Made by a program: the position numbers and the translations under genes. A stretch of 64,000 nucleotides of DNA from Nymphaea colorata (lineage: Eukaryota > Streptophyta > Magnoliopsida > Nymphaeales > Nymphaeaceae), in the NCBI RefSeq assembly GCF_008831285.2, contig NC_045145.1, positions 4,938,723 through 5,002,722 on the forward strand, in the 5' to 3' direction. The notes beneath the pieces are model-generated. The model did not search any database. It saw only the letters and a list, made by a program, of their open reading frames with translations, and was not told the DNA's origin. Shown one piece after another: positions 17,801 to 47,254 of this stretch (the first letter of the stretch is position 1; each line of letters begins with the position of its first letter).

Positions 17801-20800
17801 AAGTTGGATATTATCTGGTAGGCAGGGAACTTCAACCTGGCTTTGCCCAGGCTTTCAGACAAATACTTTGGGGTCCAGAATAAACGAAATGGAAGGTTTC
17901 TCCCTAGCAAGCAGGATCGCAAGGTCCCGTTGTAATGTGCTACCTTTGTCTGATTATCCTTCTCGAAAGGATTAGGTTCATCTCCTAAATCTATCCCTTA
18001 TCCCCTGGTTTCATTTCCTCATCCGACTTCGATGGGTCCGAAGTTTTTGTTGCTATTATGTCATCTAAATTTTGCCTTGCCGTTTTACCCTTTGAATTGC
18101 CATGGCCTCCTTTTTTAACATATTGGATATCTGCAGGTGCCCTTCGATCATTCGGATGGGCTGCTCTGCGCTTGAACTGGCTGACCTCCTTGCACTTGAG
18201 GCCTCTTTTTGGATTTGACTTAGCCTCTTTCAATGTTGTAAAAAGTGTATCGTAAGTCGTATCGGTCCGGCCAATAGATACACTGTATCGTAAAGTATCA
18301 TAATGTATCGTAAATTTATTTTTTTGATTAAAAAAAGAAAAAAAAATAAAAAATAGAGAAAAATCAGATAAATCAAGAAAATAAAAAATATGTTTTTTAA
18401 TGAAAAAACATGTTATGCATAATGACAGATTTATTATATTATAGGTATGGAGTTACTTCACAAACATTAATTAGTAGTCATAAAATATATTGTAACACAA
18501 CATGATCTAAGACATCAAGAAACATAATTTATAAGATGATCTGCATAATAACTCATAAGTCATAATATCCATAACACATCAAAAACCAAGTATTACCTAC
18601 ACTATACATCACATCACAAGACAAAATTGTTCAATGTTAATGCACATAACAAATGAAAACAACTTCATCCATAATCTTTATCATCTCATTCTCATTTTCA
18701 TCTTTCGTAGAAGATATAAACCCCCTGTATCTAAACAAGAATCAATCATCTTTTATAAATCTGCCTCAAATCGACGATGCCATAGTGAAACTGATTATTC
18801 CTTTTGAAAATTGCCAGAATCTCCCCCTCCAACTATTAGATATGTTCAGAAATGAAGAGGGAGGCAAGTTTTAAAAATTAGTTTGAAAAAAAGGTGGTTT
18901 TAACTTTTAACCCCATAATTTTCAAAATAGACATGTATCGTGTGATACGGGGTGTATTGCTCTGTATCGTACGATATAGGTTGTGTATTGCACGATATAT
19001 GCGATACACATACGCAAAAGACCCTCTCCCTTCAGAGCTCGACTGGGAGATCCGGTAAGCAAATCTAGAGACAGACCTTATTTGATGCTTACACCTTCAT
19101 CGGTTGGCCAAGGTACCATCGATTCGCAATCAGCGTGCGATTCCCCGCCCTCCAGGCCTCCGTGAGAGAACAACACTGATGTCTTCTTCTGAGTTTGTGT
19201 GAATGACGAAGTTACTTTTCTGACCACTGTAAACATGGTTGGGAACTTATCTCCATTGTTCCTTGCAATGGCACTTACCGCCGCATAGTCTTACCTTCTT
19301 GTCATCTCCTTATAAGATTCCTTCGGAATGAATAACTGCTTCATTCAGTTCTTTTCTTTAAGCAGCAGCGGGGGGATACATCCCTCCATACCAACCTCGG
19401 TGCCATTCCGTTCCACAATAGAACTCCAAGACCTGGCTTTCACCTCTGTAGTTTTCCATGCGTCCTACCCTATGTCACACGGACACGGCAAAATGAGCCA
19501 CGTACCGTTATCGACACTCCGACACTTGGACACGACAAGATACGTTTTGGATCGGGTCTGGGTCAGACCCGATCTGAACTACTTTACTAACCCGACATTC
19601 TTTGTTTTGTTTGAGACTTTCTTTCTTATGACTTATGAGATTGGTGATGAACAATGTTTTGTTTGAGAATATGAGACTTTCTTTCTTATGACTTGTGAGA
19701 TTGTAAGAGTGCATTATTAATTTATGTTTTTTTTTAATTTTATTATCCTTTTTAATTTTTTAGAATATAAAGTCAATTCCAATGTCCTTCAATAAGCTTT
19801 TTAACCATACAATCTCCATGGTGGTGGTGGCCATGGCACGATACTCTGCTTCAGTTGATGATAGAGAGACCTTATTTTGTTTTTTGCACCTCCACGAAAT
19901 AAGAGAGCCACCTAGAAAAACACAAAAACCGGTGGTGGAATGCCTGTTATTAGGATATCCACCCAACTGCTTCATTCAGTTCTCTTCTTTAAGCAGCAGC
20001 GGGGGGATACATCCCTCCATACCAACCTCGGTGCCATTCCGTTCCACAATAGAACTCCAAGACCTGGCTTTCACCTCTGTAGTTTTCCATGCGTCCTACC
20101 CTATGTCACACGGACACGGCAAAATGAGCCACGTACCGTTATCGACACTCCGACACTTGGATACCGACACTTGGACACGGCAAGATACGTTTTGGATCGG
20201 GTCTGGGTCAGACCCGATCTGAACTACTTTACTAACCCGACATTCTTTGTTTTGTTTGAGACTTTCTTTCTTATGACTTATGAGATTGGTGATGAACAAT
20301 GTTTTGTTTGAGAATCTGAGACTTTCTTTCTTATGACTTGTGAGATTGTAAGAGTGCATTATTAATTTATGTTTTTTTTTAATTTTATTATCCTTTTTAA
20401 TTTTTTAGAATATAAAGTCAATTCCAATGTCCTTCAATAAGCTTTTTAACCATACAATCTCCATGGTGGTGGTGGCCATGGCACGATACTCTGCTTCAGT
20501 TGATGATAGAGAGACCTTATTTTGTTTTTTGCACCTCCACGAAATAAGAGAGCCACCTAGAAAAACACAAAAACCGGTGGTGGAATGCCTGTTATTAGGA
20601 TATCCACCCCAATAAGCATCAGTATAGGCAATCATATTCAAGTTTGATGAGGAGGATAGAAAAAGTCCTTTAGTGATTGTGTGTTTGACATATCGAACAA
20701 TCCTCAATGCGGCTCCCATGTGTACAGAAGTGGGTCTTTGTTGAAACTGACTTATGACATGTACCGCATGTGATATGTCAGGCCTTGTGATGGATAAATA

Positions 20801-29478: not shown

Positions 29479-32400
29479 CCCTTATTTATTTATTTATGTG
29501 TATTTTGAAATTTTGTGCTATAAAGATATGTTACCTGTGATTGATACTGACATTTTATGTCTTTCATTATTTTGAGAACTTTAAATATTGTGTACCTCTT
29601 CATTGGTTTTATTTTATGCAAACAACTTGAACCAACTATCCAAGAGTAGTCTTTTTACAATTTTGACTGACTTGTGGCTAATGTCTAATTTTGACAATTT
29701 AGATTTGTGCTGTATTTCAGCTTCCATAATGATCGAACTTGCCTTGGTGACTGAGTAACTTGGCGGTACAAATTCATTGGGTGCTTGATTATACAAAAAT
29801 GGGTGTGAAAATTATTGTATGCATTGTGTATGTTAGATTACTGTCACCCATTATCTATTTTTTAGAGTTATTGATGCTTCTGATGCTAGCCACTTTGCAT
29901 TTGTTCCTTTTAGGTGGCTGTTCTTGCAGATGATATCCTGAAGAATGTCGAATATGATGCTTTGAGGATTGTCTTTAACAAATTTCATTCTGTTGTCTCT
30001 TTCATTCCCACAGTGACAACTGTATTATCTCCTGAGGTGAGTTTTATGTACTATCTATATTGGTAACTATATTTTGCTTGATTGGTTGATCTCACTTGGC
30101 TCTTGATGTGCTCAGACTGTTGAAAGAGAGTCTGAAGGAGGAATGCTTGGTAATCTGGACTCGTATGAAATAGAAGGGGGTGAAACCAAAGCAGAAGTTC
30201 TTCAGAATCTAACTGAATTTCAGTTTGCTTGTGTAAGCTTCATATCTTTATCGTTTATGGTGTCTAATTTTCTTGTTCATTTTGCTGTTAGGCACTAAAT
30301 TATAGCTATCTGTTTAGTGGATTAACCCTAACATGTCATTTTATGTAATGTATTATTTGCTCTATGGTTTCCTAACTTTCAATTAGAAATAGCGGAGTCA
30401 AATGCCTATACCAGAAGATGGAATAAGGCAATCATGTGCTTCATATCTAAATATCAGTGGCTCTGAGCCAGAAATCTAAGCTGGGCAGGCACAACATGTA
30501 ATTAAGCTTTAAAAGAAAAATCAGTTAAATAAATACTGTAAATTGTTTAGAGAAAGTGAAAAAAGTACAAAAGGAAGATGTTACCATTTAGGGCCCGTTT
30601 GATGCATAGGAGGAATTTAACGTGGTAAATTTACCATGGTAAATTTTTCTGGAAAAATTTACAGGATGAAAATTTACCCTCTTCCAATCTGAGGGCCTGT
30701 TTGATGCACATGAAGAATTTAACGTGCTAAATTTAACCCTGTTTGATGCACAAGAAGAATTTAACCTGATAAATTTAACCCTGTTTGATGCACATGGTAG
30801 AAAAATTAGGAGACTTTTTTCAGAACTGTTAGTAGTTGTTTTTTTTTATTCTCCCCAATTTGACGTGGGAAGAAATAAGAAGATGATCTTTCAAAACAAC
30901 AAAATGTTGATGTCTACACCTACGCATTAAGCATGCAGTACCAACAACAGTTTTTATGTAAAAAAAAAAAACACAGTTAAAAGAATAATGACTTTACTAT
31001 GTGTTTGCAATTTACAAGGAACGCATTTGAGCATGATATCTATGTTGATTTGCTGGATACAATGAAAGGTTGCAGCTTTCTACTTCAGCTATTAACTTCA
31101 TATTATCTAGCTTTCATACCAACCAAACTGGACTAGGCTGACATACTTGGATCCCTGCAATCTCTACATCGGTTTCCCTTATGTTTTTTTAATCCTAAAC
31201 TTAATCACACAGATGTAATTATCATGTTAAAAATTCACCTAGAAAGTAGAAACATATTCCAAGATCAAATCCTTTGAGTTCAGTTTTTCAGATGCTTAGA
31301 TAAGTTCTGATTACGTTGTAAAATCTTGAGAATTTCTGCCCTGATCGGTACAGATTCTACTCACACGTTCACATAAACTGATGTAAGGGACAAATGTTGT
31401 ATATCACATCCGTGCAGTATAAAAGTCAGAAACTTGAAGTGACGATTAACATACTGATTTCTGAGTTGTCATTACAAAATTTTTGTACAATTAGATACAT
31501 TATCAGCAAACGCAACATTCACCTAAAATTCTAACACAACGAATACCAGATCACAAAGAACCATCCACGAGGGAGTCGCTCCCATTCATCATCATCTCTG
31601 ACCGGACAGTCAGGTGACCATTATGAAGAAAAAATGAACAGACACTCACGGGAAGGCGACGACCTTCGTACCGTCAAAGTGGAAAGGGCAGACAGCGAAC
31701 TCGAAGAGCTCGAATCTCTCCGCCGCGTCCTTCGCTTTGTTGTAGGCCGTCTCGGCAGTGTCAATGGGAAGAATCCGACGCCACGGAGAAGAGTAAAGCC
31801 CTGATTTCTGAGTGGAGATGGAAATGAAATCGGTGTCGGGAATGCGCTCCTTCACCTCCCGCAGGAGGTAATCGAAGTTCGACCGCACCACCTGCTTCAC
31901 CCTTCATTCCTTCGTGCTCCTGCTGCAGAAACCCCTCGGCACTCTCGGCCACATGTAGGGCTTAAGCAAGAGAGAAAGGGAGACAACGAGAGCAAGAGAG
32001 AAAGACAAAGACACATTTTTTGGGTGTTTCTGAAAGGGACACAGTGAGAGCAAGAGAGAAACCCTTACATGTGGCGATGGCGAACAGTGGCCCAGTGGAG
32101 GAGCGGCGACTGTGGCGGTGGCGGACTGGTTGTGCGCCAACAATGACGATGGGATGCTGCCAATGAACACACGCTGCTGGAGATGTTCTCGACTGCGAGA
32201 GGAGAAAATTGGCGTGAGGGAAAAATCGAGAGCAGTCGATCGGGTGAAATTTCACCCGCTCAAAAGTCCGACCTGTGAGGTCGGACTTTTGAGCGGGTGA
32301 AATTTTATCCGATCAAATAACATTTAAACGGGTGAAATTTCACACCGTTTGATACGGCTTGAGACGGGTGGGTAAAATTTCACCCGCCCGTACATATTTC

Positions 32401-33680: not shown

Positions 33681-36600
33681 TAACAGTTGTGCATGATAAC
33701 GGTTTTGCATGATCAGATTGGATCAACAAATCACATCCCACAAATCTCATAAGGATAGGACTTATACAAATGTGCCACTAACTCAATGAAATCTTAAATA
33801 TTTTACAAATAGATCAACATATGCTCATTCAAAGCTACCACACAAACTGTAATTGGGAAGGATATGTTAGAGAGAAAAATTAGAAACAACATATATCACA
33901 AACTGGACCATGGAACCACCAAATTGAAATCTCCTTGAAAAAGGAAATATGGATCTGAGAAAAAAAGGAGGTATGACTAATCCAACTCTAAAGCATGTAG
34001 AAGACAAAAAAAGCCGTTGGGGTCAGATATGGTTAGAGAAGAACCTCAAAACAAACATTTAAGTGGAAAGAAAAGAAACAAATATTGAAATGTAAGACCC
34101 ACGATTTTTTTTAAGATTCCTTAAAAATTTGGAACATAAATTGGGAAGGAATCACAAATGAAAGATCAAATGATTCCTAATGATTTTTCAAAAACTGTCA
34201 AGTTTATCATAAAGGACACATTTGTGGAAAAGATAGGGATAAGGTTGTAACTGCAAAGGAGAACTATTCTTTTATTGCAGCATTTGAAGAACACGTCCAA
34301 CAAAAGAGAAATTGAGAGAGCGAGAGAGAGAACGTGAGAGAAACGTTCTCATTCTTGCTCTCTTGTTGGGATTGAGATTGGTGGCTGCTGAAAAGAAACC
34401 AGAGGCAAAGAGGCTGACGAGAAGCCATCTCAGATTTTCATAGGTATGGGAGTATTAAGTGATGAATAGCATGAAGCCCTTGTATTTTGATTGCTTATTG
34501 ATGGAGATATATATGTTTGCATTATATACTGTATTCGTAGTTCTGAATATCTATGAGAAAGCATGCTAAATACAGATATGAAGTGTAAAACATGTCGGTC
34601 TAAGTTGTTTCTCCTTGTTTTCTGTCTGTTATTGCCTTCGTGAGAAACGAGACTAGAGTCGACCTTAGGTCAGAGCATGAATATCTATGTTAATGGCTTT
34701 GTTAGAGGATTCAATCAAACTAGAAGAAAGAAAGTGGTATACCAGAACCCTCTCAGAGGGTCTGGGCACAAAACTTATGAGGATACCAAAACATAAACAA
34801 GAACAATAGGAGCAGTCCGGGACGTCGCCAACAAAAGGCGGGAATGCTCTACTCGACTTAGGGAAAATCTAAAAATCAACAACAAATAAGAGAAAGGGAA
34901 AGAGCGACTGCATTGACGAGCAGACGCTGTTGCCCAATTCACTGGAAAACCAGCCTTTTTAGTCACGTTGGTGGCAGAGAGGCGTTTTGGGTAAAGCTGA
35001 AATGCAACGTCCTCCGTGTGGGCCGGTTCATCCTCGTCACAACAAAAGGGGAGATCGAGAGAGATGCGTCTGGTTCGGATGGTGGTCTTCCTCACGGTGG
35101 CTATACTGGGAGAACGAGAGAAGAGGAGGCGACGGCGGTTGAAGGCGTCGAGCGGTCCGTAGGCGCGACAACATGGAGACCCAACGCCGGATCTCGTGAG
35201 ATGATGAACTTTGCTCTCTGGTTTTGGGTGGTGGAAGAACGGTGGAAGCCCCACCGCCAGACGAACAGGAAGAAGAAGAAGAAGGAGCTCTCGTGCTCTG
35301 AGGAGAGAGAAAATCGGGCGAGAAATGAAGGAAAACTTAGGGTTCGACCAAGTTTATATTGAGTTGGAAATTTTCAGAAATAGTACAGCTTATTAGCGAA
35401 ATTCTTTGAAAAACTGTTATAATTTCTAGAAATTCATGCCGCAACGTTTTTGCTAAAAACTTTTTCAGAAAGAGGCTTGCTTGCGAAGGTTATTTTCAAT
35501 AAAAACCAGAGATTTCATACGAAATTGCGATTTGGTACCCTCTAAGTTCTTAAAATTTGCAAAAGGGGGGTTTTATAGATTTGTTTGTAATTTCAGTAGA
35601 AAGACAAAATGTTATGTGTTATTGGGCCTTGGTACCCTTATTTTTATTTAAATTTCAGACAAAGGGTTCTGAAAATAAAATATGAAAGTAGAAAAAGAAG
35701 GTCATGTTTTGAGAATTTAAAATATAAATCCCTTCTTTCTAAACAATGATTATATTATTATTATTTGAGATTCCTAGACGTGATATTCGTTGTTTCTTGA
35801 TTTCTCTACTTTGATTCGTTTGGGTAGTGGGGGAATATACTTGATACGTATATTCCAGAGGTTGTCCTCACTCCTTAGAAATTGAAAATGACTTATTGCT
35901 TCTATTTGGGGAACCGTGCCTTAAGATGGTTTCTATGAGAGGTAATAGACGATGTCTAGTGATGAGAAACACTCACATTTGAAATTCGAAGGCGAAACGT
36001 GGATTGTGTGCAATCGTACATCGAGTGCGAGCTTGTATTTTTGCCCAGTGTTTGGTTTCGTCTCGGAAGGTAGTGGTGTGCGTGAGCTCACTGTTGACGC
36101 ACACTCCTCCGTCTGCACTGGAGGGCCCACAGGGTATTGGGCGGCACAAGGGCCCGGGATTTTGTTCTGTTTCTGTTGGAGAGCAAGGCATCAACTAGTC
36201 CCTCACCCTGGGTGCCAAGAGGGACCTTGCTGCTGCAGCGGCGATCTGGGATATCCTAGGAGGCTTCACTACAGGTTACCCTCGATCTGTTGGATCGCCT
36301 GGTGAAGATATGTTTTGTTCTGCCCGTGAGTGCCCACGGGGATTTCTGTTGTCGCTCAGCACGATGACCATGACATTGTCAAAGAACCACGGTTGGAAGT
36401 CTACGAAATTATGGAGGTTTTGTACACCTCGTTTTTTATAACGTGACATACCTGCAATTTGTGTTAAGATTTGGAGACTTATAGTTGTGGTTCATAAGGC
36501 CATTTTATGAATTTATTTTACAAAATCAAATATTATTTTGTTGGGCCATGTTCCATTAATGGCTGGATTTTTCCATAATCAGAGGAATTCTGTCCCTTCT

Positions 36601-39600
36601 TTCTATCTCTACAAGTAGTTCTTGATAGATTTTGGCTCATGGAGTGACAACCTCAATTTTGCGATGGACGGACATTGGCAATCTGGACACTGCATCGGTT
36701 TTGGGCTTAGTGGTCATTTTAGTTGTTTGAGTCCAAGTGTTTTATTTTAATACAGTGCATTTGTTTAAGTTTTAGTCATGACTCAATGTTACTTCAGCTA
36801 TTATTTATGCAAATGAAAAAAAAAAAATTGGTGTCAAATATTTGGTCGTGAGAAACTTTGGTATCAGAGTATAGTGTTTAGAGTTTTTGTCCAATGCCAA
36901 TGTCGATCACAAGCAGAGGAAAGGTCATCCAAGCCTGTTAGAGAAGAGTGTTTTTGATTTATTGTGAATTTTGAAGTTTTATAGTAGTCTTAACGGATTG
37001 CTTTACTTACGAATACAATTGTTATATTTTGTTTTCTTCCATGCGGTATAGTTTAAATGGCACGCACTAGAGGACGAAGTGCTAGAGGTAGAGACAGAGG
37101 CCCTCACAGCACCAGGGGTCGAAACGTGGAGACTCATCCTACTCGACTTTGGACACCTGTTGGAAACATCCAACAACAGCAAGCGTTCATCATGAACACC
37201 TTGCACATGATTACGGGGTTGATGCATGGATTGGCGCTGGACGTTCCTTCAAGAAGAAACTAGTACAAATACAAAGGGGACAACGAATGGTGAAGCAAGG
37301 GGCGCAACTCACCAACAGTTTATGAGCTTACATCCTCCAAAGTTCCATGGGAAAGGCACGACTGACGATGCAGAAGAGTGGATAAAAGAAACCGAAAAGA
37401 TTTTTACCACCCTGAAAGTACCTGACAACAAGAAGGTTCGGTATGGAACCTTTATGCTAAAATGAGATGTTGAGGAATGGTGGCAGACGCAACGTGAAGT
37501 GAAGTTCGCAAGTGGCGAAGCGACTTGGGAAGGATTCAAGGAAGCCTTCACACATGCTTACATCCCCGCCTTCACACGGGAGAAACGCATGCAACAATTC
37601 TTGGAGCTTCAAGAAAGAAGTATGAGGCTGCACGAATACGTCGTCAAATTCAGTGTGTATACTTTTGCTATGGACAGAGCGAATAAGTTCATCAGAGGAC
37701 TTAAAGACGGGTTGCGGAGCAAAGTAATGGGTAGTCGTCCACGAGACTTGGACGATGCAATTGACATGACCACACATTTTGATGAAGACTAGAACCAGAC
37801 GCATGAGACAGATAGGAGGAATGAATTTCTGCGGTCCAAACAGAGGCGAAACATGTTAAAGAGGAGGCGCAATGACAGGGTGAACTAGGGGGACAGGTTT
37901 AAGAGACAGAGGTCATCTTCATCCAGGCAGGACGAGGAATGCTCCAAATGTCATCGCCAACATCTCGGTAAACCATGTTACAGAGATGTCAGGGCTTGTC
38001 TCTACTACGGAACGCAAGGTCTTTTTATTCGTGAGTGCCCAATGAAGAAAGAGGCGGAGCAGAAGCGTGGTGTAGCCAACCAACCAGCAGAAAAGAAGGT
38101 ATATGGGAGAGTTTATACAACCATGGTAGAAGATTTGAAATCCATTGACCTGATTGAAGATACCCTTGTTGTTCCTTCTCATTGGGCACATATTCTATTT
38201 TTCTATGGTGGATCACATTCCTTTGTTTCTGAGAGATTTGCCGAACTTTTAAAGTTTGAAAGAAAGAATATGCCTTATGAATTGTTAGTCGCTAATCCCA
38301 TGGGAAGCAAAGACACATGCAGGACCTATTTAGAAAATGTGAAAATAGAAATACATGGACATTATGATGTAATCCTATGAATGGATTGGTTATGCCATGA
38401 CTATACGACGATAGATTGCAGAAGGAAAAAGTTGAAGATTGAGTTGGAGAACGCTCAAAAGATCGAATATGGGGTAAAAGCGTCCCAAGATCAAAGAAAG
38501 TTAGTTTTCTCAGCAGTTAAGGCAAAGAAATACGTGGAAAATGGGTGCATTGCTTATTTGGTTAGCGTGGATGCAATCGACCAGAAATTAAAACCCATCA
38601 GTGAGGTGCGAACGGTGAAGGACTTTGCAGACGTGTTCCCTAAGGATTTACCCGGATTGCCTCCTGTACGAGAGGTGGAATTTGACATCGAATTGATACC
38701 AGAAACTGCACCTATTTCTAAGGCTTCATATAGAATGGCACTAGCAGAACTGGAAGAATTAAAGAAACAGATCCGAGATTTGGCCAGCAAGGGATTCATA
38801 CCCCATCATATTTATTACCACAAGTTGTGCTGGTAATAAATGTCCATGTATTTCTATTTTCACATTTTCTAAATACGTTCTGCATGTGTCTTTGCTTCAC
38901 ATGGGCGTAGCGACTAACAATTCATAAGGCATATTCTTTCTTTCAAACTTTAAAAGTTCAGCAAATCTCTCAGAAACAAAGGAATGTGATGCACCATAGT
39001 CAAACAGAATATGTGCCCAATGAGAATGCACAAGAAGGGTACCTTCAATCAGGTCGGTGGATTTCAAATCCTCTACCATGGTTGTATAAACTCTCCCAAG
39101 TACCTTCTTCTCTGCTGGTTGGTTGGCTGCACCACGCTTCTACTCCGCCTCTTTCTTCTTTGGGCACTCACGAATAAAATGTCATTGCGTTCCACAGTAG
39201 ACACATGCCCTGACATCTCTGTAACATGGTTTACCGGGACGTTGGCGATGACATTTGGGGCATTCCTCGTCCTGCCTGGATGAAGATGACCTCTGTCTCT
39301 TGAATCTATCCTCCTAGTTCACTTTGTCACTGCGCCTCCTCTTTAACATGTTTGGCCTATGCTTGGACCGCAGAAATTCATTCCTCCTATCTGTTTTATG
39401 CGTCCTGTTCCAGTCCTCATCAAAACGTGTGACCATGTCAATTGCATCGTCCAAGTCTCGTGGGCGACTACCCATTACTTTGCTTCGCAACCCGTCTTTT
39501 AAGTCCTTTGATGAACTTATTCGCTCTGTCCGTATCAAAAGTATACACATGGAGGCAATAGTTTTCCAGGTGTCTGAATTTGACGACGTATTCGTGCAAA

Positions 39601-42600
39601 CTCATACTTCTTTCTTGAAGCTCCAAGAATTGTTGCATGCGTTTCTCCCGTGTGAAGGCTGGGATGTAAGCATGTGTGAAGGCTTCCTTGAATCCTTCCC
39701 AAGTCGCTTCGTGACTTGCGAACTTCACTTCACGTTGCGTCTGCCACCATTCCTCAACATCTCCTTTTAGCATAAAGGTTCCATACCGAACCTTGTTGTC
39801 AGGTACTTTTAGGGTGGTAAAAATCTTTTCGGTTTCTTTTATCCACTCTTCTGCATCGTCAGTCGTGCCTTTCCCATGGAACTTTGGAGGATGTAAGCTC
39901 ATAAACTGTTGGTGAGTTGCGCCCCTTGCTTCACCATTCGTTGTCCCCTCTGTATCTGTACTAGTTTCTTCTTGAAGGAACATCCAGCGCCAGTCCATGC
40001 ATCAACCCCGTAATCATGTGCAAGGTGTTCATAATGAACGCTTGCTGTTGTTGGATGTTTCCAACAGGTGTCCTAGGTCGAGTAGGATGAGTCTCCACGT
40101 TTCGACCCCTGGTGCTGTGAGGGCCTCTGTCTCTACCTCTAGCACTTCATCCTCTAGTGCGTGCCATTTAAACTATACCGCACGGAAGAAAACAAAATAT
40201 AACAATTGTATTCGTAAGTAAAGCATTCCGTTAAGACTACTATAAAACTTCAAAATTCACAATAAATCAAAAACACTCTTCTCTAACAGGCTTGGATGAC
40301 CTTTCCTCTGCTTGTGATCGACATTGGCATTGGACAAAAACTCTAAACACTATACTCTGATACCAAAGTTTGTCACGACCCAATATTTGACACCAATTTT
40401 TTTTTTATTTGCATAAATAATAGCTGAAGTAACATTGAGTGATGACTAAAACTTAAACAAATGCACTGTATTAAAATAAAACACTTGGACTCAAACAACT
40501 AAAATGACCACTAAGCCCAAAACCGACGCAGTGTCCAGATTGCCACTGCCCGTCTATCGCAAAATTGAGGTCGTCACTCCATGAGCCAAAATCTATCAAG
40601 AACTACTTGTAGAGATATAAAGAAGGGACAGAAGGGACAAAATTCCTCTGATTATGGAGAAATCCAGCCATTAATGGAACATGGCCCAACAAAATAATCT
40701 TTGATTTTGTAAAATAAATTCATAAAATGGCCTTATGAACCATAACTATAAGTCTCCAAATTTTAACACAAATTGCAGGTATGTCACATTACAAAAACGA
40801 GGTGTACAAAACCTCCATAATTTCGTAGACTTCCAACCTTGGTTCTTTGACAATGTCATGGTCATCGTGCTGAGCGACAACAGAAATCCCCGTGGGCACT
40901 CACGGGCAGAACAAAACATATCTTCACCAGGCGATTCAACAGATCGAGGGTAACCTGTAGTGAAGCCTCCTAGGATATCCCAGATCGCCGCTGCAGCAGC
41001 AGGGTCCCTCTTGGCACCCAGGGTGAGGGACTAGGAGATGCCTTGCTCTCCAACAGAAACAGAACAAAATCCCGGGCCCTTGTGCCGCCCAATACCCTAT
41101 GGGCCCTCCAGTGCAGACGGAGGAGTGTGCGTCAATAGTGAGCTCATGGGCAAAAACACAATCTCGCTCTCGCATGTACGATTGCACACAGTTCACGTTT
41201 CGCTTTCGAATTTCAAATGTGAGGGCTTCTCATCACTAAACATCGTCTATTACCTCTCATAGAAACCACCCTCACGCTCGGTTTCCCAGACAGAAGCAAT
41301 AAGTCATTTTCAATTTCTAAGGAGTGGGGAGTGGGGACAACCTATGGAATATATACGTATCAAGTATATTCTCCCACCACCCAAACAACGCAAAGTTGAG
41401 AAATCAAGAAACAACGAATATCACGTCTAGGAATCTCAAATAATAATAATATAATCATCGTTTAGAAATAAGAGATTTATATTTTAAATTCTCAGAACAT
41501 GACCTTTTTTTACTTTCAGATTTTATTTTCAGAACCCTTTGTTTGAAATTTACATAAAAATAAGGGTACCAAGGCGCAATAATACATAACATTTTGTCTT
41601 TCTACTGAATTTACAAACAAATCTATAAAATCCCCCTTTTTGCAAATTTTAAGAACTTAGAGAGTACCCAAATCGCAATTTCGTATGAAATCTTTGGTTT
41701 TTATTGAAAATAACTTTTGCAAGCAAGCCCCTTTCTGAAAAAGTTTTTAGCAAAAACGTTGCGGCATGAATTTTTAGAAATTATTACAGTTTTTCTGAGA
41801 ATTTCGCTAATAAGGTGGACTATTTCTAAAAATTTTCAACTCAATATAAACTTGGTCGAACCGTAAGTTTTCCTTCATTTCTGGCCCGATTTTCTCTCTC
41901 CTCAGGGCACGAGAGCTCCTTCTTCTTCTTCTTCCTGTTCGTTCGGCGGTGGGGCTTCCACCGTTCTTCCACCACCCAAAACCAAAGAGCAAAGCTCTTC
42001 GTCTCGCGAGATCCGGCGTTGGGTCTCCATGCTGTCTCACCTACGGACCGCTCGACGCCTTCAATCGCTGTCACCTCCTCTTCTCTCGTTCTCCCAGCAT
42101 AGCCACCGTGAGGAAGACCACTATTCGAACAAGACGCGTCTCTCTCGATCTCCCCTTTTGTTGCGACGAGGATGAACCGGCCCACACGGAGGAATGACAG
42201 GAGGAGGACGCTGCATTTCAGCTTTACCCAGAACGCTTCTCTGCCACCAGCGTGAGGAAAAAGGCTGGTTTTCCAGTCGATTGGGCAACAACGTTTGCTC
42301 GTCAATGCGGTCGCTCTTTCCCTTTATCTTATTTGTTGCTGATTTTTAGATTTTCCCTAAGTCGAGCAGAGCATTGCATTCCCGCCTTCTGTCGGCGACG
42401 TCACAGACTGCTCCTCCTATTGTTCTTGTTTATGTTTTGGTATCCTCGTAAGTTCTGTGGCCAGACACTCTGAGAGGGTTCTGGTATACCAGTTTCTTTC
42501 TTCTAGTTTGATTGAATCCTCTAACAAAGCCATTAACATAGATATTCATGCTCGGACCTAAGGTCGACTCTAGTGTCGTTTTTCACGAAGGCAATAACAG

Positions 42601-44846
42601 ATAGAAAACAAAGAGAAACAACTTAGACTGACATGTTTTATACTCCACATCTGTATTTAGCATGCTTTCTCATAGATATTCAGAATTACGAACACAGTAT
42701 ATCATGCAAACATATATATCTCCATCAATAAGTAGTCAAAATACAAGGGTTTCATGCTATTCATCACTGAATATTTCCATACCTGTGAAAATCTGAGATG
42801 GCTTCTCTTCATCTTTGCCTCTGGTTTCTATTCAGTAGCCACCAATCTCAATTCCAACAAGAGAGCAAGAATGAAGACGTTTCTCTCACGTTTTTTCTCT
42901 CTCTCAATTTCTCTTTTGCTGGACCTATTCTTCAAATGCTGCAGTAAAAGAATAGTTCCCCTTTTCTGGTACAACCTTATCCCTATCTTTTCCACAAATG
43001 TCTCCTTTATGATAAACTTGACAGTTTTTTGAAAAATCATTAGGAATCATTTGATCTTTCATTTGTGATTCCTTCCCAATTTTTGTTCCAAATTTTTAAG
43101 GAATCTTAAAAAAAATCGTGGGTCTTACATGAAAACAGAAGAAGACATGCCTTGCAGGATTGTTGCGAGTTGCCACCAGTTCTAAGCTTAGCCTGTTGTT
43201 GGAGGTAGCCAATAGTCATCTGAGGCTGGAGCAAGCAGAGGAGGGGGAAGAAAAGAGGAAAACAGAGCTTGTGAGCTAACTTTGGTTAGGTGTGCAAAAA
43301 TCTTAGTAAAGTGGGTTAGATCTGGATCTGACCTCGATCTCTATCCAATCATATTCCATTCAGTAGACGTAACCATGTTCCGATACTGCCATGCCAGCGT
43401 CAATTTGTGCTTAAACCACATACCCATGTGACTTAGGTTGTGGGTTTTATGTTCCCTCCATTTATTTTCTTATTAGATTAGTAATTTAGGTTTCAGTTTA
43501 TGCTTTTGTGGGTTTGAAACTAGAATTGAATATTTAGCGGTTGATATTTAGGAATTAGAAGATTTTTCATCCTTTATAGTTAAATCTCAAAATCAATCTT
43601 TTTATATATTTTCAAGCTTTAATTATGAACTTTATTGCATTTGATCTTTCAAAATTTTAATTAGGTTTATTACTTTGTTCTCATGTTGTGAATGTTTAAT
43701 GTGCAATTGTTATTCTGTATTTTTTTTTTGGTTATAACTTATAAGTTGATGGTTATATGATTTTCATTGAAAGTGCTTCATTTTTGCTGTTAATTTTGAC
43801 AATTAACATTTCATATTACTGTTACTATTTATTTATTGTTATTGTTATTATTATTAGTATCTGGCATTGCTTAATGTGCGTAGTCCCACCCTCGGTTCTA
43901 TGCATGACTGATCCTCCCGGCTGCACCTAGTGCTTTCAACAGCATAGCTAAAATGGCAGTTGATTGTTTAATAAACTTTAATCTGCAGTGGCAAGTAGTA
44001 TTGGCGTCTGATGTATAGTTTAGCAGTGTGAAATAGGTCTGTTGACTGCATCCATTTGCCCACAGTTGTCATCAGCTTGCTTATGTTATTGCTTCGATTG
44101 AGTTCCAAACAGACATTGGCTGCTTGAGATAAAGCCATTTTGTCGGATTGCTTATCAAGCTCGATTTATCTGGATGATCCATTTAAATCTCAGAGTTTGC
44201 TGAATTATGGTTACAGGGCTGGTTATATTTCTCTCTAGATTAAGCATTGTTAGGTAACTGGCTGCCAGTCCACCTACAGAAATTTCTCCATAGATATAGA
44301 AGGAATATATGTTCGTTGTACAATGCAATGGATTCTTGCCTAAGTTCTCCACGCTGTAGTCCAAACTTGCTTGTGTTGTTTAATTCTGTTACAATTTCCT
44401 TTTTCTGGGTTGATTGTAAATTTGGCTGTTATAAATGTTAGGTCCTTTTCAACGCGAGTTTGGAGAATGCATGTAGTGAGCAAGGAGCAAGGATGTCTGC
44501 TATGGATAGTTCAAGCAGAAATGCTGGGGAAATGCTTGACCGGCTCACTCTTACGTATAACAGGTACAGGTTCTTAGTCATAACGTGCATCTTATTGAGG
44601 TTACCAAATGCTGAAGCCTGGTGGTTTGGTCAAGTGGTTTTCTCTAGTTATGAGGGGAGTGCTTGAGCCCTTAGTGTGGCATGTCTTCTTTTGGTCAGTC
44701 AACTTTAGCCAGTAGAGTCATTATGGAATGTGGCAACTGATCCATCTTTTTCCTTGCTTTTCCTTTTCCCTTGCAGAACCCGTCAAGCTTCTATCACAAC
44801 GGAACTCATTGAGATTATATCGGGTGCATCTGCACTGGAGGGCTAA
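11844..44846 (+). CDS. ATPC: ATP synthase subunit gamma, mitochondrial (nine exons, 322 aa)
   Basis: Coding exons: 11844-11941, 12741-12784, 12896-13048, 14578-14691, 16302-16429, 29914-30036, 30116-30232, 44442-44563, 44777-44846. All introns are GT-AG, phases agree, total 969 nt. The protein starts MAMAALRREGRRLLLP, an Arg-rich mitochondrial presequence. The mature part opens at STQVVRNRMKSVKNIQKIT with the conserved TKAMKMVAASKLR helix of the rotor shaft. SSDKGLCGGINS lies near residue 112, and the C-terminal helix (LENACSEQGARMSAMDSS, then RNAGEMLDRLTLTYNRTRQ) is complete, ending in TELIEIISGASALEG. Gamma is the central stalk of F1, coupling c-ring rotation to catalysis in the alpha3beta3 head; Arabidopsis At2g33040 is the reference. 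The length matches the family. Unusual: introns 5 (13,484 bp) and 7 (14,209 bp) are filled with transposons, yet coding sequence and splice sites look undamaged. Gene symbol taken from Arabidopsis usage. Confidence 0.95.
13049..14577 (+). other. Intron 3 of ATP synthase gamma
   Basis: A 1,529-bp GT-AG intron. 13430-13640 resembles a degenerate dispersed repeat (ggcccatatc motifs), and a hAT MITE lies at 14054-14377. No other gene. Confidence 0.8.
14054..14377. mobile_element. hAT-type MITE, family B (in intron 3)
   Basis: 324 bp starting ctaagtcacagtgg and ending ctatgtgacatag, flanked by a perfect 8-bp direct repeat GTTGAACA (14046-14053 and 14378-14385). The interior has gtacccgtaccc repeats. 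Same family as the element at 19470-25128, which has TIR ctatgtcacacgg. No transposase, so non-autonomous. Confidence 0.8.
16742..18233 (-). pseudogene. L1-type LINE, inverted 5' part: endonuclease remnant and RT start
   Basis: Minus-strand translation, with stops and frameshifts, gives pieces of a plant L1-type LINE. From 18233: a basic, lysine-rich ORF1-like segment. At 17601-17380: endonuclease region GPVFCVGNFSSGLSG (normally GDFN; Asp lost) followed by FSNFIHSCDLVE and TNHREGTTNVMCRLD, then SSSDHNPVL near 17310. At 17146-16742: the linker FWRQRSRMKWLKQGDANTRFFH typical of plant LINEs. LINE similarity stops around 16770-16790 after VMKALTD, inside the sequence that should continue into the reverse transcriptase. 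That continuation is found on the plus strand from ~25290. Dead element. Confidence 0.8.
18234..19010. repeat. Inserted non-autonomous repeat with gtgtatcg inverted ends
   Basis: About 0.77 kb of AT-rich sequence interrupting the LINE 5' part. The left end reads gtgtatcgtaagtcgtatcgg and the right end gatatatgcgatacac, so the termini are imperfect inverted repeats around gtgtatcg/cgatacac, with further tgtatcg motifs inside. LINE-like sequence resumes on both sides. No protein. I could not settle the target duplication, so the superfamily is open. Confidence 0.5.
19011..19469 (-). pseudogene. LINE 5' part, ORF1-region fragment
   Basis: Continuation of the inverted LINE piece upstream of the inserted repeat. 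On the minus strand a short frame (VLEFYCGTEWHRGWYGGMYP) joins in frame across the hAT element to the fragment at 25129-25297 once the 8-bp target duplication is counted once, showing that both were contiguous before the hAT inserted. The product is inferred from context only. Confidence 0.5.
19334..20609. repeat. Tandem duplication, two units (631 and 645 bp)
   Basis: Unit 1 is 19334-19964 and unit 2 is 19965-20609. They are nearly identical; unit 2 has a 14-bp insertion near 20160. Each unit runs from LINE sequence through the left part of the hAT element (from ctatgtcac at 19470 and 20101) into the truncated 3' end of the Copia pol gene. Because it spans three nested elements, the duplication is the most recent event here, and the low divergence agrees. 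Confidence 0.9.
20405..23255 (-). pseudogene. Copia 1 pol: protease, integrase, RT, partial RNase H
   Basis: First frame 23255-22524: protease motif ILDSGASFHMTP, then the GAG-pre-integrase zinc region (WHQRLGHSSLGKM ... CDDCIKAK) and integrase start (HSDVWGP, FVDDYSRY). A frameshift near 22528, in a T/A-rich run, moves the frame to that ending at 20405: rest of integrase (FRSDSGGEF ... PQQNGVAERKHRHILE), RT with WVYKVKTRSDGSLERYKARL and catalytic LLLYVDDMIITGND, then RNase H up to SSTEAEYRAMATTTMEIVWL. It stops at DIGIDFIF, before the last catalytic Asp region. Apart from the frameshift and 3' loss the frame is open over ~2.8 kb, so the copy is fairly young. pol is in the same frame as gag, separated by a single TGA. 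Confidence 0.9.
23286..24266 (-). CDS. Copia 1 Gag (326 aa, UBN2/CCHC)
   Basis: ATG at 24264-24266 gives a protein starting MDERTSSTPLPKLISSNYVS; an in-frame Met 31 codons upstream is less likely because family similarity begins here. The N-terminal and central part has the Copia gag fold (NYVSWAKTMEHFIRSKGLWG). A zinc knuckle C-X2-C-X4-H-X4-C is present as CFYCQEEGHTKHRCPKLRRF. The frame ends at TGA 23286-23288 and resumes in frame as pol. Intact Copia elements normally have one gag-pol frame, so the stop is either a point mutation or, less likely, a readthrough site. Confidence 0.85.
   Translation of the reverse strand: MDERTSSTPLPKLISSNYVSWAKTMEHFIRSKGLWGLVDGSKGEPQLVLTKTIDGKAQELDGVEKDKVMNEYEKKWKEWKIGHHKIITWIIACVDTTTMGQIAKHNFAHEAWEFLKKTHTMKDVAYMCNLQMKIASLQQGDKSIKEYVGEMEQLWDELALFEPEWYDPRDIGVREKQIQREKFYKFILGPRSEYDGVKTSLLHRHKVPSMNEAIAELQMEENSLNFSKDKSENVLATSRPGAHMRTYRPPHFNRNYEHNNHGNKKIICFYCQEEGHTKHRCPKLRRFDKKTSVAGTMYEESNRFDLDKLVIALQPKLIDALQPLFK
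24551..24561 (-). other. Copia 1 primer-binding site (tRNA-iMet)
   Basis: Minus strand reads TGGTATCAGAG directly after the LTR end CA, complementary to the 3' end of initiator tRNA-Met. Confidence 0.9.
24562..25069 (-). repeat. Copia 1 5' LTR (508 bp)
   Basis: On the minus strand it starts TGTTAGAATTTAAAG and ends ACTGATTTACA next to the PBS, so the TG...CA ends are present. A TATA-like TATAAATAAGGG lies at 24746-24757. Just upstream in U3 is a strong hairpin: 24791-24816 pairs with 24821-24847 around an AAAT loop. No second LTR is present. Confidence 0.9.
25129..25297 (-). pseudogene. LINE 5' part, outermost fragment at the inversion junction
   Basis: Minus-strand frame with WKKLREAPDSIVRHSGN and FNRAMMTCPGGKGTSLLY, continuous in frame with 19469 and below once the hAT is removed. 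The opposite (plus) strand from ~25290 begins the 3' part of the LINE, so this point is the internal junction of the two opposed pieces. Confidence 0.55.
25290..28250 (+). pseudogene. L1-type LINE, 3' part: reverse transcriptase and zf-RVT
   Basis: Plus-strand continuation of the LINE, broken by stops and shifts. It begins FLQRFVGDSLASPL, where the minus-strand piece left off. RT follows: ADKTHLVLIPK (~25620), VRRGLRQGDPLSPYLF (~26045), and SILDADDILLF (~26190; the usual YADD has Tyr replaced by Asp), then LPFKYLGLPF (~26390). The zf-RVT domain is at ~27200-27560: TEDRLQRLGISLVSRCSFC, HLFFSRPSARKVW, IIWCIWIRRNE. A weak RNase H-like remnant follows around 27740-27840. The 3' end is uncertain, near 28150-28260; no clean poly(A) tail or target duplication identified. 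Confidence 0.85.
28870..29160. repeat. Dispersed repeat with gtattatacg ends (copy 2)
   Basis: Starts with gtgtacgggtattatacgg and ends ggcgtattatacgtgt, so the ends are roughly inverted. A similar AT-rich sequence (cgggtataatac ... ttttcacgtttttaac) lies at ~1110-1430 in carrier intron 3. Low-complexity interior, no protein. Confidence 0.4.
29240..29480. repeat. Microsatellite cluster in intron 5
   Basis: (CT)n at about 29239-29276, (GT)n at 29306-29323 and (AC)n at 29453-29477 in quick succession. Confidence 0.9.
31650..31954 (-). pseudogene. Captured first exon of a PARN-like poly(A)-specific ribonuclease
   Basis: Minus-strand frame from ATG 31952-31954: MWPRVPRGFCSRSTKE, an in-frame TGA at 31904-31906, then RVKQVVRSNFDYLLREV, ERIPDTDFISIS, GLYSSPWRRILP, AERFELFEFAVCPF and TKVVAFP, ending exactly at a splice donor (CCC|GTGAGT). 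It resembles the plant PARN-like deadenylase family (CAF1/DEDD exonuclease; Arabidopsis At3g25430 type). In the family FISIDxE carries the first catalytic Asp and Glu; here the segment reads FISISTQKSG, so both are lost. With the early stop this is not a working nuclease. The CT-rich stretch at ~31960-32170 may be captured 5' UTR. It sits antisense to the host gene, inside a transposon. Confidence 0.75.
32238..32314. repeat. 36-bp hairpin near the right end of the PIF-like element
   Basis: 32238-32273 is the reverse complement of 32279-32314 with two mismatches, separated by the 5-nt loop tgtga. The inner 27 bp pair perfectly. Confidence 0.9.
33397..33672. repeat. AT microsatellites
   Basis: (AT)n at about 33393-33412 and 33643-33680 flank the small inverted-repeat element at 33476-33592. 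Confidence 0.85.
33476..33592. mobile_element. Small MITE-like element with gtgtcgctaaaa ends
   Basis: About 115 bp with inverted ends ttttgtgtcgctaaaa and ttttagcgacacaaaa. Non-coding. The target duplication is unclear, so the superfamily is not assigned. Confidence 0.55.
34086..34090. repeat. Left target-site duplication TGAAA of the palindromic element
   Basis: TGAAA precedes the LTR start and is repeated at 43130-43134 after the opposite end. Five bp is the size made by plant LTR-retrotransposon integrases. Confidence 0.8.
34091..36853 (+). repeat. Left-arm LTR of the palindromic Gypsy (2,763 bp)
   Basis: Starts TGTAAGACCCACG and ends GTCGTGAGA; the other arm keeps the expected GTCGTGACA. 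It is followed by aactt and the PBS. The long LTR suits Del/Tekay-like Gypsy elements, but the lineage is not proven. Open frames inside (e.g. 34913-35362) are mirrored in the other LTR and are not taken as genes. Confidence 0.9.
36859..36869 (+). other. Primer-binding site, left arm (tRNA-iMet)
   Basis: TGGTATCAGAG, 5 nt after the LTR end, continuing into tatagtg. Confidence 0.85.
37057..38800 (+). pseudogene. Left-arm Gypsy gag, protease and start of RT
   Basis: Gag starts MARTRGRSARGRDRG (37057) and is broken by stops at ~37262 and ~37463. The Retrotransposon_gag core reads FHGKGTTDDAEEWIKETEKI and WEGFKEAFTHAYIP. Two zinc-knuckle-like segments (CSKCHRQHLGKPC, CLYYGTQGLFIREC) are at ~37938-38040. 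The protease active site is damaged: FYGGSHSFVSERFAELL at 38200 in place of D-S/T-G. RT begins near 38600 with VRTVKDFADVFPKDLPGLPP and LPPVREVEFDIELIPETAPI, then stops being RT-like after DLASKGFI at ~38800, well before any catalytic motif. Non-functional. Confidence 0.85.
38801..38838. other. Apex junction filler with a 10-bp inverted repeat
   Basis: Between the end of RT similarity (~38800) and the first paired base of the right arm (38839) are ~40 bp unlike either arm. They contain atttattacc and ggtaataaat, a perfect 10-bp inverted repeat around acaagttgtgct. This is where the two head-to-head copies were joined. Confidence 0.7.
38839..40204 (-). pseudogene. Right-arm Gypsy gag and protease
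   Basis: Mirror of the left arm, reading on minus from ~40170 to 38839. gag is open for 176 codons at 39998-39468 (KFHGKGTTDDAEEWIKETEK, then the WWQTQREVKF region), with fewer lesions than the left arm. The protease site keeps Asp but not the Ser/Thr-Gly step: LFDYGASHSFVSERF near 39000. Similarity ends within the protease-RT linker at catggacatt, so this arm has no RT. Confidence 0.8.
40355..40365 (-). other. Primer-binding site, right arm (tRNA-iMet)
   Basis: The minus strand reads TGGTATCAGAG five nt after LTR end GTCGTGACA. Confidence 0.85.
40371..43129 (-). repeat. Right-arm LTR of the palindromic Gypsy (2,759 bp)
   Basis: On minus it starts TGTAAGACCCACG at 43129 and ends GTCGTGACA at 40371, an inverted copy of 34091-36853 with small indels and substitutions. 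It is followed outward by TGAAA at 43130-43134. Confidence 0.9.
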
Positions 44847-46399: not shown

Positions 46400-46579
46400 A
46401 TCAAACGGCAACTCAAAGCAGTTGGTCATTTTAGTATTTGCAACGCCATGTAACCTACGTTTATATATATCCCAACCAGTAGACTTTCAAGAAATCAAAC
46501 GGCTCGTTGGCAACTCAAAGCAAGTTGATCATTTTAGTATTTGCAACGCCATATGTCATACGTTTATTTTACACACACA

Positions 46580-46610
<31 letters not shown>

Positions 46611-46640
46611 CTGTGTGTGTAAAATAAACGTAAGGCATAT
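46400..46640. repeat. ~100-bp direct duplication plus AT/AC palindrome
   Basis: The segment ggcaactcaaagca ... ttagtatttgcaacgcc occurs at ~46407-46448 and again at ~46508-46550. The second copy runs into a palindrome at 46560-46631 (acgtttattttacacacacagata... and its mirror), ~35-bp arms with no loop. Confidence 0.8.
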
Positions 46641-47180
46641 GTTGTGTATATATAAAGAGAGAGGGGTAAAACCCAACTATGTCATCATAAAGAATCAATA
46701 CTCCTCAATACATTCAAACAAAAAACGTTTGTATAAAAACTGCAATTACTACCAAATTTGGTTACTTTTAACTATTTGTTTCAGTATCAACAATCATTCA
46801 ATAAAAATTTCAATTGCCGTGAAGCACTTCAACTTCAATACCAACAACCATTCAATAAAAATTTCAATTACCATGAATTCTTTTTTTTAGTAAGCACTCC
46901 AAACCTTTTGAAGGTCACATCAAAGCAAAAGGCTTTGCTCGTGATGATGCGACTTGATGTTAGAGATTTGCTAATAATGTGACCTGACATGACATTGGGA
47001 CTACACTTTGGATTGCATCAAGGCTTGGCGGGTTGCCGGAAGCATTTCTCCCTACCGGCTGTCGCTTGAGAGAGGGGCAGATACCAAAAAACGGGTTGCA
47101 CTAACCTAAGCGCGTCCAAATTATGTAAAAGAAGAAACAGGTCCAGCAAACAACAAAAATCGTACATTGGTTTCCGAGAG

Positions 47181-47254
47181 CGCTAGAAGGAGGGCTCGAA
47201 CCTCCGACCTTGTGGTTAACAGCCACACGCTCTAGCCAACTGAGCTATTCCAGC
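47181..47254 (-). tRNA. tRNA-Asn (anticodon GUU)
   Basis: 74 nt on minus. The acceptor stem gctggaa pairs with ttctagc with one G-T pair, discriminator G. The A box is in tagctcagttggctaga, the anticodon GTT at 47218-47220 in the loop ctgttaacc, and the B box is ggttcgagccc. No intron and no encoded CCA, as in nuclear tRNAs. A T5 run at about 47154-47158 (minus TTTTT) can act as the Pol III terminator. The sequence matches the known plant nuclear tRNA-Asn almost exactly. Confidence 0.95.

Follow-up and report, generated by a model that had tools for sequence, protein, structure and literature searches.

The inverted duplication at positions 34091-43129 of the window (the whole stretch of 64,000 nucleotides of Nymphaea colorata DNA that we analyzed, C8:4938723-5002722) most probably entered the genome by a single integration event that used two U3 ends. 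From the sequence, we put the probability of this at about 0.88. Integration usually pairs the left and right ends of an element (one U3 and one U5). Here, the 5' half of a Ty3/Gypsy-type element (LTR, PBS, gag, and protease) is present twice, in opposite orientations, with LTRs of 2.76 kb. A sequence-only reading had already proposed one integration through two U3 ends, and the proposal is strengthened by the 5-bp duplications of ordinary relatives, by the sister relationship of the two arms, and by the lack of any other opposed neighboring pair among 52 U3 termini in the genome. The features that we refer to are as follows.

34086..34090: TGAAA, left copy of the target-site duplication
34091..38799, plus strand: left arm (LTR, PBS, gag, protease, start of RT)
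34091..36853, plus strand: left LTR, U3 outward, ending ...GTCGTGAGA (placed from the PBS position and the family's LTR end)
36038..37768, plus strand: low-divergence block, in left-arm coordinates (44 of 1689 sites differ, 2.6%)
36859..36869, plus strand: PBS of the left arm, TGGTATCAGAG
37057..37059, plus strand: gag start codon of the left arm
38364..38799, plus strand: segment C, in the left arm only
38796..38799: apex junction, a 4-bp overlap (TCAT) common to both arms
38796..43129, minus strand: right arm (LTR, PBS, gag, protease)
38800..38838, minus strand: segment B, 39 bp, in the right arm only (missing in the left arm between 38363 and 38364)
39468..39998, minus strand: gag fragment of the right arm (Pfam Retrotrans_gag, 7.6e-13)
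40355..40365, minus strand: PBS of the right arm, TGGTATCAGAG
40371..43129, minus strand: right LTR, U3 outward, ending ...GTCGTGACA
43130..43134: TGAAA, right copy of the target-site duplication, in direct orientation

The U3 terminus TGTAAGACCCACG, which had been read at both outer ends, is found at 34091 (plus strand) and at 43117-43129 (minus strand) and at no further site in the window. TGAAA is indeed flush outside both U3 ends, and readings of the duplication as 4 bp or 6 bp give no match. A copied fold-back of the left flank would put TTTCA on the right, where TGAAA is seen; the repeat is thus oriented as integrase would leave it. Two random 5-mers from the window agree by chance with p = 0.0015, near the earlier estimate of 1 in 1,000 (TGAAA itself is at 0.0029 of positions). 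We also searched the genome with both flanks for an empty site and, judging by eye, saw no left-flank and right-flank places near each other among the matches listed. When the joined flanks were compared with C9:20971500-20973500, 231 bp of the left flank matched at 71%, the other matches were fragments of 11-22 bp, and nothing spanned the site.

Within each arm, the order LTR, PBS, gag, protease is as previously described, with the addition that the left arm continues through a further 436 bp of protease/RT, up to position 38799. The description of the arms as tail-to-tail halves also stands, but they are not identical (90-99% in ungapped blocks of over 100 bp). The LTR has TG...CA ends (TGTAAG...GTGACA in the right arm; the end is altered to GAGA in the left arm), and the PBS, which we take to be of the tRNA-Met type, begins 5 bp beyond. 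The 3' LTR and polypurine tract were said to be lacking, and we agree: a purine tract such as GGGGGGAAGGA lies upstream of the 3' LTR in all six of the relatives that could be read far enough (of 9 tried; exact in 3), and such a tract is at neither edge of the element in the window. Similarly, a 2.2-kb stretch from the 3' internal region of the C11 relative has no matches in the window.

The assignment to Ty3/Gypsy rests on a Ty3-type gag at 39468-39998 (PF03732, 7.6e-13; PF19259, 3.3e-10), on the 5-bp target duplication, and on a Gypsy-type RT/RNase H (PF17919, 7.6e-28) that was found in one of four ORF pieces, in the C11 relative alone; integrase was found in none of the four pieces scanned. 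The palindromic element breaks off where RT begins, and the 151-aa piece at 38381-38836 matches no families. As both outer ends are U3, rather than one U3 and one U5, we view the element as an aberrant product of a Ty3/Gypsy element and not as a normal member.

Ordinary relatives make 5-bp duplications. We searched 407.8 Mb of genome; these searches score the best candidates alone, so all copy counts are lower bounds. Among six two-LTR relatives that were chosen by hand, both ends could be located in five, of which four are flanked by exact 5-bp duplications (GCCAT, GCCAT, TCGCA, and GCAGC), adjoining GGGTCGTGACA. This bears out the statement that a duplication of about 5 bp is the norm. (The relative at C11:15.9M has no exact 5-bp duplication, and for the sixth, at C7:12.29M, no 3' end could be located.) A census with a 30-base pattern and up to 3 mismatches, which more diverged copies would escape, gave 52 U3 termini, and the reversed control gave 0. 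These termini form 22 neighboring pairs less than 25 kb apart, of which 21 are co-directional and one is opposed, namely the element at 34091-43129. The search for other U3-to-U3 palindromes that had been recommended thus showed no second opposed pair among these termini.

Other arrangements of the family were seen along the way. An opposed pair of LTRs on C10 was considered as a U3-out element and rejected: its U3 ends face inward, and the center of the palindrome lies outside the LTR. This palindrome (C10:19524337-19534944) is 10.6 kb long with arms that are 98.7% identical, ends about 100 bp past the PBS, and looks like a recent inverted duplication. In the copy at C11:20766779, near position 731 of the locus, a minus-direction U3 end directly abuts the plus-direction gag of another copy, probably because one element inserted into another. 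Same-family tandem arrays with three U3 starts each are present at C1:33719372-33727686, C2:16106305-16115241, and C6:16174280-16183214, with a constant U3 pitch (4157 bp; 4468 bp; 4465 and 4469 bp) and one matching outer 5-bp duplication per array (TGTTG, CTTGG, and CTATG, respectively). These three, of five arrays looked at, could be template-switching complexes or the result of unequal exchange between LTRs. In place of a matching outer duplication, the array at C11:18.68M has a purine tract ahead of its first U3. The array at C3:24955589-24963332 has shorter LTRs, and its upstream flank ends in LTR-like sequence plus CTTAG, which equals the downstream 5 bp. Finally, there are U3 starts at C9:2164055, 2164631, and 2170587, two of which are co-directional and 576 bp apart.

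The two arms appear to derive from one source. Between them, 228 of 4221 ungapped sites (5.4%) are different and there are 19 gap runs, and they are sister sequences in the trees for all six pieces, with the following support (among the rows of the pieces other than 36860-37768, a few are one copy fetched twice).

34091-34500: 13 rows, 95/92
34501-35097: 4 rows, with the two LTRs of the C11 copy as the sole relatives, 96/94
35257-36037: 21 rows, 100/100
36038-36852: 23 rows, 100/100
36860-37768: 17 rows, 100/100
37769-38363: 20 rows, 100/99

Over the first 610 bp, identity is 93% to the other arm and 82% to the next full-length match, with a partial match of up to 90% over 208 bp (best 40 of 146 candidates). 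Elsewhere, relatives are at times nearly as close as the other arm, yet the trees group both arms. For the gag/protease stretch of the right arm, the other arm is 92% identical, C11 91%, and C3 90% (best 40 of 113 candidates). Across 35891-36490, a region with a 35-bp deletion in the right arm, identity is 89% to the other arm and 88% to C10:12.8M (best 40 of 356). The left arm differs from C11 by 7.9% at 34501-35097, compared to 6.7% between the arms, and the right arm differs from C11 by 7.9% at 38061-38363, compared to 6.9%. Both arms also share a gag frameshift (at about 37.25 kb), a gag stop codon (at about 37.89 kb), and a 6-bp deletion, all absent from the 13 aligned relatives. The shared stop lies outside the low-divergence block, and its CHG context makes a double hit possible, though unlikely. 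Given these common defects, the source RNA was probably defective in gag already, and its proteins would have come from elsewhere (in trans).

The differences between the arms are as expected for silent decay in place. When we polarized 224 of them, 78 were private to the left arm, 65 were private to the right arm, and 81 were ambiguous; at 37769-38363, there were 20 left-arm changes and 6 right-arm changes. CG and CHG sites have an excess of transitions, and the codon positions in the divergent gag/protease stretch (11/21/20) have no clear bias. The block at 36038-37768 is only about one third as diverged as the remainder, with 132 of 1937 sites differing on one side of it (6.8%) and 52 of 595 on the other (8.7%). 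Its limits were picked for the strongest contrast, and none of 5000 permutations reaches that contrast. We reject purifying selection as the cause, given the lack of codon-position bias, and lower mutability, because divergence from the C11 copy does not drop within the block. Another possibility is that the arms are a mosaic of two decayed parents. We see no sign of two different parents: the share of differences for which relatives have both states is no higher outside the block (59 of 179) than inside it (22 of 45). Together with the lack of a drop in divergence from C11, this favors gene conversion over a mosaic, and it was probably conversion from arm to arm that made the block.

At the apex, the segments run A (to 38363), B (39 bp), and C (38364-38799) in relatives, and A, C, and then B and A reversed in the window. 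The 39 bp of B are missing from the left arm exactly where the right arm ends. A 43-bp stretch (B plus 4 bp) is unflipped beside C in 36 of the 39 other loci that were scored (from the best 40 of 204 candidates); in the remaining 3, there is no such match among the matches listed. The arm limits, for which a self-alignment had been called for, lie at 38799 (left) and 38796 (right), with the arms joined over TCAT. Among 15 distinct relatives (in 16 rows, two being one copy), 14 continue with a T or a C in place of the A of the window (TTCAT in 11 and TTTAT in 3), and the match of the other one, L035, ends 2 bp short. On the other side of the junction, the base needed to extend the homology is absent from all 15. 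As neither side extends in the relatives, the junction homology is 4 bp. A hairpin near 38811-38842 was considered as a fold-back apex or an insertion and rejected, as it is ordinary family sequence (segment B) in the C11 copy and in the same 36 of 39 loci.

How were the halves joined? A finished palindromic cDNA, as the sequence-only reading proposed, is plausible, and we lean towards joining before integration, by a strand switch between plus strands during reverse transcription. A gag-defective Gypsy-type RNA would have been reverse-transcribed with the help of proteins provided in trans. One plus strand, extended through U3-R-U5-PBS-gag and into the beginning of pol, would have switched, over 4 bases, to a second plus strand, and would then have copied that strand outward as far as its U3 terminus. 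This would yield a linear duplex with a U3 end on each side and no U5 end, which integrase could insert in one concerted reaction with the single 5-bp duplication TGAAA. Both arms would then decay in place, and the 1.7-kb central block would later be equalized by conversion between the arms. The joining point may correspond to a plus-strand discontinuity: one molecule's plus strand may have ended there, and in the other molecule, a gap over the hairpin-prone segment B may have been skipped before the free 3' end switched strands. The 39 bp missing at the joining point calls for such a second step under a strand switch, and the apex suits end joining equally well. A simple snap-back of one strand seems less likely because it would give just one double-stranded U3 end.

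A second possibility, which we consider doubtful though worth entertaining, is that two cDNAs of one source were brought by their U3 ends into one intasome and inserted together, and that the chromosome was healed through their free tails by trimming and microhomology end joining. The unequal arms (436 bp more on the left), the 4-bp microhomology, and the 39-bp irregularity at the junction have the look of end joining, and the resulting sequence would be identical to that of a palindrome joined beforehand. On the other hand, this route demands two cDNAs in one intasome and a chromosome break that is repaired via the tails, and the differences between the arms give no hint of two different parents. 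If it did occur, then living plants do not enforce the pairing of U3 with U5, and inverted-repeat loci that could make hairpin RNA against their own family can be built by integration itself.

Third, a normal element could have been rearranged later, by an internal break, backward copying of the 5' half, and a second switch onto the old right flank. The U3 and U5 ends have GGGTC..ACA in common, so a 3-bp switch point was available, and the C10 palindrome is a large inverted duplication with LTRs of this family. We think this very unlikely because the copied left flank would give TTTCA past the right U3 end instead of TGAAA, and because the second switch must land within the final 3 bases of some 9 kb. 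Fourth, it is highly improbable that two independent insertions in opposite orientations each lost their 3' parts and have equal duplications by chance. Nested and tandem copies are common here, but the chance match is about 0.0015, there are no other opposed pairs among the 22, and the arms are sisters with a common frameshift and stop. Finally, palindromes are hard to assemble, but an artefact is scarcely credible: the differences and gap runs between the arms exclude a fold-back read, and a misjoin is not expected to yield flush U3 ends and one duplication.

The element resembles several known systems in part. Complex LTR elements with three LTRs and a single duplication have been attributed to template switching (Sabot and Schulman, 2007, PMC1950507). 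Like the element here, they involve the abnormal joining of two copies, thought to occur during reverse transcription, and were inserted once with one 5-bp duplication. However, all three LTRs of those complexes point the same way, and the complexes have two internal regions and normal outer ends, whereas this element shares the single flanking duplication but is tail-to-tail, with two opposite LTRs and no U5 at either outer end. In vitro, retroviral concerted integration can join two separate donor ends, using short donor DNAs in a tube; two like ends, one target, and one duplication are the same, but here a 9-kb product is fixed in a genome. Autointegration also yields inverted retroelement DNA around the time of integration, but it inverts part of one cDNA at internal targets and does not leave a U3 end at both host junctions. 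Maize hairpin loci of the Mu killer type contain an inverted partial element and can, as this locus could in principle, make hairpin RNA; in contrast, the locus here would have been built by retroelement integration. We found no U3-U3 palindromic insertion among the listed titles and abstract openings of the open-access literature, with subscription journals mostly outside this search, and we have filed the element as a new form of aberrant retrotransposition.

The element would be natural evidence that two U3 ends are enough for the integrase of a plant LTR retrotransposon to complete concerted integration, and it suggests that integrase can use two identical ends in place of the usual left/right pair. 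This would be a one-step route to an inverted-repeat locus of an element. As both LTRs read inward, a young copy could yield hairpin RNA and start the silencing of the family. Opposed U3 ends with one duplication also make a signature that can be counted in other assemblies.

Elsewhere in the window, a head-to-tail duplication of about 640 bp (19334-20609, 97% identical) overlaps the end of a Copia pol ORF. Short inverted repeats at 46550-46641 (93%) and 32238-32314 (91%) are MITE-like hairpins, and a tRNA-Asn (gtt) gene lies on the minus strand at 47180-47254, about 4 kb from the element.
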